From Leptospiraceae bacterium (GTDB taxonomy: Bacteria > Spirochaetota > Leptospiria > Turneriellales > Turneriellaceae), in assembly GCA_016788945.1 (NCBI GenBank), contig JAEUSA010000035.1, positions 1-12,336 of the forward strand: a stretch of DNA of 12,336 nucleotides. Direction: 5' to 3'. Shown in pieces: positions 154 to 2,571 of the stretch; within the stretch, counting starts at the first letter, position 1; the number at the start of each line of letters is the position of its first letter. The position numbers were made by a program, and so were the translations under genes. A model generated the notes under the pieces. That model saw only the letters and a list, made by a program, of their open reading frames with translations, ran no database searches and was not told the DNA's origin.

Positions 154-215
154 CTTAGACCGATCATGCATTAAAGACAAACCAAACTATGCGTGAAGGA
201 GTTAAACAAAACACT

Positions 216-1493
216 ATGAAAAGAGGCGTATCATTCGCACTCGCGCTTGTCGCAGCGGTCTTTGCCCTGCACAGCTCAAGCAGCAAACCGAAACCCGAAT
301 CTCCGGTAGATATTTATCAACGCTCATGGGAAAAAAAATCCCTGACACAGCAGCGCTCGCTCGAAGCGAACCTACCGCTGAAAGACAGCACCTTTCTGCA
401 CTCGCACAACACGTACAATTCTGCGGCTTACACCACCGCGTTTGCGTACATTGATCCGAACCACGACTTTTCGATCAATGATCAGCTGCGCATGGATATT
501 CGTGCAATCGAATTCGACGTGCATTGGTACTTCAGCATGGATGGCTGGCCATGGGAATGGGGTATGAGACCGTTGCTCTGCCACGGCCAAGATAACCACC
601 TCGGCTGCAGCTCTTACGACCGCCATCTCTCCAAAGGTATCGACGAACTCAATGGCTTCATTCGCGCAAACCGCTCTGAAGTGGTGATCCTTTATATCGA
701 AGATCACCTGAGCGGTCACCATCAAGATGCCCTCAATGTGATCAAATCACGCCTCGGCGATTTGATCTATCGCCCGAGCAGTAACTGCCAAGACGCGCCG
801 GTTAACATCACTCGCCAGCAGGTGCTCAATGCGGGTAAAAACATTATCCTGTGGAGCGGCGGCTGCGGCACCGGTGAATGGCAGAGCTGGGTATACCTGA
901 AAAATAATGTTGTCCCCGAAGAAAATGTGTCCAAATTCACTTCATACCCCGATTGCGGATCACAATACATCAATGCCGATGCATACGCAAACAAGATGGT
1001 GCGCTTCTATGAAGATCGCACAAACCTGACTGCTTGGTTCGGTGGTGGTTCTGGAAAAACAACGACAGCGAACATGCCTGAAATGATCAAGTGCGGTGTT
1101 AACCTGCCCGGCATGGACAAAATCAGCCCGAACGATGGTCGCCTTGCTTCTGCAGTGTTCTCTTGGGCACCGGGCGAACCGAATAACTACGGCAATAACG
1201 AAGACTGCGCAATGCAATACTCGAGTGGCCGCTGGAACGATGCGAACTGCGCAAATCGCTATCGCTTTGCCTGCCGTAACAGTGCAGGTCAATGGCGGAT
1301 CTCGAATGCGTCGGGAACATTTGCCGACGGTGCAGCAGTTTGCAGCAACGAAACCGGCGGTGCCTACCAGTTTGCCGTACCGAAAAATGGTAACCAGAAC
1401 CAGAAGCTTGTCGACGCAAAACGCGCCGCCGGCGTGAACGATGTCTGGATTCGTTACTCTGATATCTCCACCGAAGGCGTGTGGAGAGAATAA
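216..1493 (+). CDS. Secreted PI-PLC-type phospholipase C with permuted C-type lectin domain
   Basis: This is a 425-residue secreted phosphodiesterase. Residues 1-20 form a signal peptide without a lipobox cysteine. Residues 55-300 match the PI-PLC X domain: HSHNTYNS (H64, N65), IEFDVHW (E99, D101), LLCHG (H123) and ILYIEDH (E162). These resemble the catalytic histidines and calcium ligands of eukaryotic PI-PLC more than those of Bacillus PI-PLC. The likely reaction is cleavage of phosphatidylinositol or a related lipid outside the cytoplasm. Residues 315-353 match the C-terminal half of a C-type lectin domain: E321-P322-N323, EDC331, W340-N341-D342, C345, C353. Residues 360-425 match the N-terminal half (C376, AVP 387-389, DVWI 409-412, EGVW 420-423), so the order is reversed. 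I chose the ATG at 216 because AAGGAG (196-201) precedes it, 14 bases away, and it begins a clean signal peptide. An in-frame ATG at 189 has no ribosome site. Lipid and sugar specificity are unknown. Confidence 0.8.
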   Translation: MKRGVSFALALVAAVFALHSSSSKPKPESPVDIYQRSWEKKSLTQQRSLEANLPLKDSTFLHSHNTYNSAAYTTAFAYIDPNHDFSINDQLRMDIRAIEFDVHWYFSMDGWPWEWGMRPLLCHGQDNHLGCSSYDRHLSKGIDELNGFIRANRSEVVILYIEDHLSGHHQDALNVIKSRLGDLIYRPSSNCQDAPVNITRQQVLNAGKNIILWSGGCGTGEWQSWVYLKNNVVPEENVSKFTSYPDCGSQYINADAYANKMVRFYEDRTNLTAWFGGGSGKTTTANMPEMIKCGVNLPGMDKISPNDGRLASAVFSWAPGEPNNYGNNEDCAMQYSSGRWNDANCANRYRFACRNSAGQWRISNASGTFADGAAVCSNETGGAYQFAVPKNGNQNQKLVDAKRAAGVNDVWIRYSDISTEGVWRE

Positions 1494-1635: not shown

Positions 1636-2571
1636 ATGATCGAAATTCTTAAGCGCTACCGCATACCGCTGTTCTTGGTGGTTGTCGCCATAATCATCTA
1701 TCGCTTGTTCTTCTATGGCCAGAATGCACCCGCCGGCAAAGCACAAACCGCCGGTATCGAACGCTTTCCTTATCCGACAGACCGGTTGAGTGAATCGCAC
1801 AGTGACTATATTCTTGCCGAAGTTCAGGCCGGCCGCATTGACCTCGCACTGGAATTGGTGCGCCTGCGCCGCGACTGTGCGGGTGAAGTCGACGAGCAGG
1901 GCTGTAATGAACGCATACGCAAAATGATCCAAAATTTGCCGGGCAAAGACAAGCAGCGCCTCGGTGAAATCTTTGAGCAGTACCTGCAATTCGAGGCCAA
2001 AATGCGGCAGAATCTGCCGGAAAATTTTGCCAGCCTGAGCAATCAGGAAAAGTACCGGCTGATGAAAAAAGCGCGGCGGGATTTTTTCGGTGAAGACACA
2101 GCGAAATTGATTTTCGGCGTCGAAGAGGCGCGAGTTGCCCTGACCGAAGAACAGGCGAAGTTCAATTCACCTGAATATGCCAACCTGCCGGTTGAAGAAC
2201 GTCTACGCCTGTATGAAGAGCGCAAGAAAGAAATTTTAGGCGGTTATCATCAGGCGCATATCGAACGCGAGCCGGCAGACATCAAGTACGGAACCGATCT
2301 GATGCTGCACCAGAGCGATTTAGCGAAAATGCCCGAATCTGAACGCAAACGGGTTGAATCAGAGCTGAGGGTCAAATACTTCGGTGCTGCGCAGGCGCAA
2401 AAAATGGAGCAAGAGGAAAAACAGTTGTCTCAGCAAGATAGCGAGGCAATCGCCAAGATGGATCAGTTTCTGGCCGCCGAACGCGAATACCTCAAAAATA
2501 ACCCCAATCTCAGCGAAGAGCAGCGTCGTTCGGGTGTTGAAGACCTGCGCAAGCGTATCATCGGCAAATAA
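1636..2571 (+). CDS. Membrane-anchored lipase chaperone-like (Lif/LifO) protein
   Basis: This is a 311-residue protein with one N-terminal membrane helix (about 9-27) and no cleavage site, followed by an almost wholly helical, charged periplasmic part. The stretch 142-200 has the pattern of lipase-specific foldases: RRDFFG (147-152), then IFGVEEAR (159-166), then a helix ending in a KKEILG motif. Residues 50-75 resemble the start of the Lif family (DYIL followed by a long helix). A second, weaker repeat of the helical pattern covers about 243-311. Lif proteins are anchored in the inner membrane and fold secreted lipases in the periplasm, and they are usually encoded next to their lipase. Here the neighbour is the phospholipase-lectin 143 bases upstream, suggesting it as the client, which is inference. 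The start is supported by AAGG at 1625-1628, seven bases before ATG. The length is close to the usual 310-350 residues. A generic coiled-coil protein is the alternative. Confidence 0.55.
   Translation: MIEILKRYRIPLFLVVVAIIIYRLFFYGQNAPAGKAQTAGIERFPYPTDRLSESHSDYILAEVQAGRIDLALELVRLRRDCAGEVDEQGCNERIRKMIQNLPGKDKQRLGEIFEQYLQFEAKMRQNLPENFASLSNQEKYRLMKKARRDFFGEDTAKLIFGVEEARVALTEEQAKFNSPEYANLPVEERLRLYEERKKEILGGYHQAHIEREPADIKYGTDLMLHQSDLAKMPESERKRVESELRVKYFGAAQAQKMEQEEKQLSQQDSEAIAKMDQFLAAEREYLKNNPNLSEEQRRSGVEDLRKRIIGK

Follow-up and report, generated by a model that had tools for sequence, protein, structure and literature searches.

A family of bacterial phosphatidylinositol-specific phospholipases C carries a C-type lectin domain with its halves in reversed order, probably a circular permutation

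The ordinary C-type lectin-like domain (CTLD; Pfam PF00059), as found in SP-D, MBP, CL-K1 and langerin, has its first and last strands, b1 and b5, paired with one another, so its two chain ends are neighbours and its loops point outward, according to those parts of PMC7618208 that deal with the fold; the same parts assign the EPN motif to the mannose/fucose/glucose type. Permuted order in a carbohydrate-binding fold is known from concanavalin A and favin, a different fold, and concanavalin A is permuted after translation, in what PMC3320104 says of the pair. Within the CTLD-like superfamily, the portion of PMC3779223 on collagen IV NC1 lists segment swapping between subdomains, which it does not describe as circular permutation. 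Here we describe a gene for a phosphatidylinositol-specific phospholipase C (PI-PLC) whose C-terminal tail holds both halves of a CTLD, the C-terminal half first. It lies on the forward strand of a 12,336-nucleotide window (the whole stretch of DNA analysed) from contig JAEUSA010000035.1 of a Leptospiraceae bacterium (assembly GCA_016788945.1). We consider it highly probable that the whole tail forms a single closed C-type lectin domain with a circular permutation, a judgement that concerns the domain and leaves its function aside.

The tail shares with canonical CTLDs both halves, the EPN and WND motifs, four cysteines, the EGxW motif and the predicted strands and helices, and differs from them in that the halves are swapped, the chain ends lie at the long loop and about ten loop residues fewer are present. 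Compared with the calcium-dependent bacterial PI-PLC from Pseudomonas sp. (PDB IDs: 5fyr; 5fyp) and the eukaryotic PI-PLC X domains, the enzyme described here has the lectin tail in addition. Residue numbers refer to the 434-residue product; an internal ATG at 216, nine codons downstream of 189, would give 425 residues, and the first-pass annotation of this DNA, which counted from it, has numbers lower by 9. The protein has no match in NCBIfam. Its parts are as follows.

189-1493, forward strand: PI-PLC-lectin gene, 434 amino acids; probable signal peptide, PI-PLC-X and permuted C-type lectin
189-300, forward strand: hydrophobic N-terminal helix, probable signal peptide (helix 3-29 in the model; reading of the sequence)
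324-1136, forward strand: PI-PLC-X-like domain, residues 46-316 (Pfam match and invariant residues)
1152-1280, forward strand: C-terminal half of the C-type lectin, placed first, with b3, b4 and b5 (Pfam, profiles, fold)
1278-1292, forward strand: turn from b5 to b1, residues 364-368, closing the former chain ends (model strands 358-363 and 369-376)
1281-1490, forward strand: N-terminal half of the C-type lectin, placed second, with b1, a1, a2, b2 and EGxW (profiles, fold, natural read-through matches)

Pfam Lectin_C (PF00059) matches residues 323-363 with 33.1 bits (cut-off 22.6) at profile positions 68-106/107, and hence only the C-terminal half, placed first; since Pfam recognises half of the lectin, such domains are probably under-annotated. 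The sequence of this half is similar to that of animal collectins and of CD23, the IgE receptor (WAPGEPNN...EDC...GRWNDA.C), and the segment behind it (WRIS..SG.F.DGAAVC...FAVP....N..L..A.......DVWI..SD.STEGVW) is the part that usually precedes it in C-type lectins. When an alignment of 68 relatives (A1, from 91 collected proteins; 64 after filtering) was compared with five canonical CTLDs by hhalign, two non-colinear matches were found. With a second alignment (A2, the protein from the window and 43 loci) and a 123-column profile of six canonical CTLDs (the canonical-order protein P0096 among them), tail positions 4-42 fall on template 81-120 (E-value 1.5e-13) and tail positions 40-112 on template 1-70 (E-value 8.3e-8). 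The two segments, in reversed order, thus jointly cover positions 1-70 and 81-120 of the canonical profile, as in a circular permutant. Template positions 71-80, in the long loop, fall between the matches and are missing in the tail; this is the cut site, lying where the first-pass annotation had proposed an opening of the chain, between EGxW and WxxGEPNN. Its placing of the two halves also stands, and only the extent needed changing, as the tail is slightly longer than it had been given (about 1152-1490, 113 residues, attached to the PI-PLC by a very short linker).

Structure prediction with AlphaFold2 gave a mean pLDDT (predicted local distance difference test) of 93.6 and a pTM (predicted template modelling score) of 0.88 for the full protein, and the same values for the isolated tail, which folds as one 113-residue unit, in keeping with the earlier suggestion of a single domain rather than two partial ones. 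The elements follow one another as b3-b4-b5-b1-a1-a2-b2, against b1-a1-a2-b2-b3-b4-b5 in the canonical fold, which makes this a permuted variant and not an ordinary member; together with the non-colinear profile matches, this bears out the reversed order first read from the letters. In the full model b5 (358-363) and b1 (369-376) are consecutive strands with five residues between them, so the strands that are terminal and paired in ordinary C-type lectins would be joined here by a five-residue turn; the supposition that the ancestral ends lie side by side agrees with the b1/b5 pairing given in the relevant parts of PMC7618208. VIA-align placed model residues 44-113 on the N-terminal parts of SP-D (241-306), MBP-C (113-175) and CL-K1 (150-216), with 63-67 residues at 1.9-2.2 A in the six best matches. 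Foldseek with the tail aligned 29-32 residues (rmsd 0.3-0.6, 47-55% identity to similar lectins, 23 matches), a segment that the identity and the sequence likeness identify as the C-terminal half. Closure into one domain is supported by the predicted models, the cysteines and the logic of the b5-b1 hairpin. A confident monomer model would also be compatible with a domain swap, in which the C-terminal half of one molecule completes the N-terminal half of its neighbour, and segment swapping is on record for the CTLD-like collagen IV NC1 (in the portion of PMC3779223 that covers it); however, the short b5-b1 turn makes pairing within one chain the simplest arrangement, the monomer is predicted with confidence, and we give a swap hardly any weight.

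To follow the order of the halves across relatives, separate profiles of each half were run against 166 proteins, each tail sequence counted once (174 before near-duplicates with different ends were removed). Both halves with the C-terminal half first (C-N) are seen in 154 of these: 149 are PLC-C-N, three PLC-C-N-C-N, one C-N-C-N and one C-N. The remainder comprises four PLC-C, four PLC-N, two with PLC only and two canonical controls. The order PLC-N-C occurs in none of the 166, a zero that carries full weight only where the halves are family-like, since the family N-half profile misses the N-terminal halves of two canonical proteins, P0090 and P0091. A family trait in bacterial PI-PLC proteins, which the first-pass annotation had suggested as a possibility, is what this search for both orders returned. 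Selection of the tail order can be set aside for 53 loci in named genomes, as these were collected with a pattern inside the phospholipase domain; by the half profiles 50 are PLC-C-N, two PLC-C and one PLC-N, and a simple motif scan finds C-then-N in 49 of the 53 (missing L043, L046, L047 and L050). Among 93 collected proteins, 85 are PLC-C-N, one PLC-C-N-C-N, one C-N-C-N, two PLC-C and two PLC only, the other two being canonical lectins in which C alone was detected.

The failure of the N-half profile on the two canonical lectins weighs against a permutation, as does the lack of any Pfam match to the second half alone in the protein from the window, and the latter favours the alternative that only the calcium-loop half is a true lectin remnant while the second half is unrelated. 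Against this alternative, the N-part alone matches canonical lectins with a score of 45.1 (E-value 3e-8), well beyond chance, as the best of 300 column-shuffled controls reached 17.5. Additionally, in one relative (P0062) Lectin_C does match the N-terminal half, at positions 4-64 with 21.4 bits, just below the cut-off of 22.6. In the three proteins with two tandem C-N units after the PI-PLC (P0024, L084 and L088; whole-protein Lectin_C scores 56.4, 66.2 and 57.9 bits), Lectin_C matches best across the junction of the two units, starting in the first N-half and ending in the second C-half. This match is nearly complete (positions 4-106, 5-106 and 5-106) and ties the N-half to the C-type lectin fold without any artificial joining. 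With the VIA superposition of the same region pointing the same way, an unrelated second half is the least probable of the alternatives that we considered. In these tandem proteins the N-half and C-half in the middle may pair canonically, or the two C-N units may each close on themselves.

The cysteines and calcium motifs lie in the tail as follows; conservation was counted over 161 distinct domains (210 domain matches before duplicates and rows with more than 25 gaps were removed).

1176-1184, forward strand: EPN motif of calcium site II, mannose-type (from the sequence; E in 127 of 161, N in 120 of 161)
1200-1208, forward strand: EDC, with calcium ligand E338 and C340, canonical C2 (sequence, alignment)
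1233-1241, forward strand: WND motif, with calcium site II ligands N350 and D351 (sequence, alignment)
1248-1250, forward strand: C354, canonical C3, expected partner C340 (sequence, alignment)
1272-1274, forward strand: C362, canonical C4 (C in 161 of 161)
1341-1343, forward strand: C385, canonical C1, expected partner C362 (C in 159 of 161)

As aligned, 157 of the 161 domains have all four cysteines, and after inspection 159 do, C1 in L103 and L104 being nearby and only shifted by misalignment. In the other two (L098 and L043) C2 and C3 are lost jointly with C1 and C4 retained, which fits the pairs C2-C3 and C1-C4. We infer two disulfides, C340-C354 and C362-C385, the same pairs as the C331-C345 and C353-C376 proposed earlier in the lower numbering. 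The EPN and WND motifs are present as had been noted, and all five ligands of calcium site II (E, N, E, N, D) are found in the protein from the window and in 90 of the 161 domains. From these residues, one calcium ion in site II and binding of mannose/glucose/fucose-type sugars would be expected. In 22 of the 161, a change from EDC to QDC is linked with one from WND to WDD while EPN is kept, possibly a swap of calcium ligands.

The core tryptophans of both halves are conserved together with the cysteines, which bears on another explanation, namely two separate partial domains, a truncated CTLD and the start of another, left by a decaying tandem array. Tandem copies do exist in the three relatives mentioned above; however, the 113-residue length fits one domain that folds alone, and the two-half order recurs in the 149 PLC proteins and, outside PI-PLC, in two more. 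We therefore think a decaying array very unlikely and retain the single permuted domain.

The swapped unit is also read in sequences outside the PI-PLC context. P0092 is a [C-N]-Jacalin-[C-N] protein without PI-PLC, and L087, an Exo_endo_phos protein, carries a single C-N unit that scores 69.9 bits with the family profile and has no Pfam match at an E-value of 0.1; Jacalin or ricin-type domains are added in some relatives. Three proteins (L098, L099 and L101) have degenerate permuted domains in which only the N-half profile is detected; in these the PLC is preceded by a long additional N-terminal region, which to the eye resembles a beta/gamma-crystallin. When short proteins were searched with the tail profile, three matched: P0094 (C-N, probably a fragment, as its first residues resemble the end of a PLC domain), P0095 (partial and chimeric-looking) and P0096, the canonical-order lectin later used as a control. 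Records with the PLC-lectin, several of them named strains, come from Spirochaetota, Acidobacteriota-type genera, Pseudomonadota, Desulfoluna and Actinomycetota-type metagenome-assembled genomes, these phyla being the ones to which we take the genera to belong. The distribution is patchy: counting the centre genome, at least 6 of 296 genomes in the phylum of the window, at least 4 of 7 in its genus, at least 6 of 369 in the class of G159 and at least 2 of 247 in the phylum of G150, all lower bounds as only part of the candidates was scored in many genomes. Lectin_C itself is rare in the phylum of the window (3 of 149 genomes), and one of these (G092) matches positions 4-94 in canonical-like fashion. 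Phage records gave no match to the lectin tail; among plasmid records there was a single weak match, from Streptomyces, and it covered the PLC part.

For the enzyme itself, Pfam PI-PLC-X (PF00388) matches residues 62-199 with 24.7 bits (cut-off 23.1). H73, N74, E108, D110 and H132 are invariant in 68 aligned proteins and E171 is kept in at least 90%; residues such as H73 and H132 we take to be catalytic. A phmmer search of the PLC part against PDB sequences found no match, so this assignment rests on Pfam and the fold. PI-PLC chains were the only ones among the best 50 Foldseek matches listed for the full-length model, which is why the tail was also folded alone. The PI-PLC is probably calcium-dependent and, by its N-terminal sequence and modelled helix, probably secreted.

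The permuted chain would have been opened in the long loop region, with loss of about ten residues, and the new ends would lie at the sugar-binding loop pole beside the phospholipase, the ancestral ends being on the far side of the domain. The EPN glutamate is only eight residues after the start of the lectin domain, and since the chain enters at the loop pole, this topology suggests a sugar site adjoining the enzyme, whereas the sugar site of ordinary C-type lectins faces away from their anchor. The lectin may hold a secreted, calcium-dependent PI-PLC on glycosylated surfaces or glycolipids, a role that we put forward tentatively; candidate substrates, by reasoning, are glycosylphosphatidylinositol (GPI) anchors and phosphatidylinositol mannosides. 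It is doubtful, but conceivable, that the permutation is kept because the loops face the phospholipase, giving a two-site enzyme that would recognise the glycan of a molecule and cleave the lipid of that same molecule.

As to origin, tandem duplication of a canonical domain followed by trimming at both ends would give the observed order. The model of permutation by duplication, in the account that PMC3320104 gives of it, expects a tandem state, and the three tandem relatives are of this kind, whether as intermediates or as later duplications.

Directly downstream of the PI-PLC gene lies one further feature.

1636-2571, forward strand: lipase-foldase-like gene (PF03280, 53.1 bits, cut-off 25.7)

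The three closest relatives of this gene (66-69% identity, among the 296 genomes) adjoin a PLC gene in G055, G583 and G592; over the PLC gene, L002 and L003 share their DNA with G592 and G583. A distant copy (35%) beside a PLC in G580 is no closer to the gene in the window than copies elsewhere without a PLC nearby. Two of the latter, in G577 and G148, come after a gene that carries the lipase-like motif GHSQG, and members of the genus without the PLC (G069, G141 and G542) have only a distant copy. Co-location makes a dedicated foldase for the PI-PLC possible, and it would be unusual. Between the two genes, a strong intergenic hairpin at 1571-1621 has a minimum free energy of -36.2 kcal/mol (z-score -9.25); apart from itself, it matches the genome only at its own site read on the opposite strand.

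We found no description of a permuted C-type lectin domain in the open-licence PMC literature, though one elsewhere is possible, and a search there for calcium-dependent PI-PLC gave no paper; calcium-dependent carbohydrate-binding modules with permuted order, of a fold that differs from the C-type lectin, were reportedly described by Montanier in 2010. The permuted C-type lectin on PI-PLC is thus new as far as our literature search shows, and we regard it as real and family-wide.

The C-type lectin fold is much studied, and its neighbouring termini have been used to explain the outward loops of cell-surface receptors (in the parts of PMC7618208 on the fold). A natural permutant with its ends at the loop pole tests this rule, suggests that the fold tolerates opening in the long loop, and would provide bacteria with a lipid-cleaving enzyme whose lectin is turned differently. 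If the two-site enzyme proved true, its targets would be, for instance, mannose-bearing GPI anchors or phosphatidylinositol mannosides.
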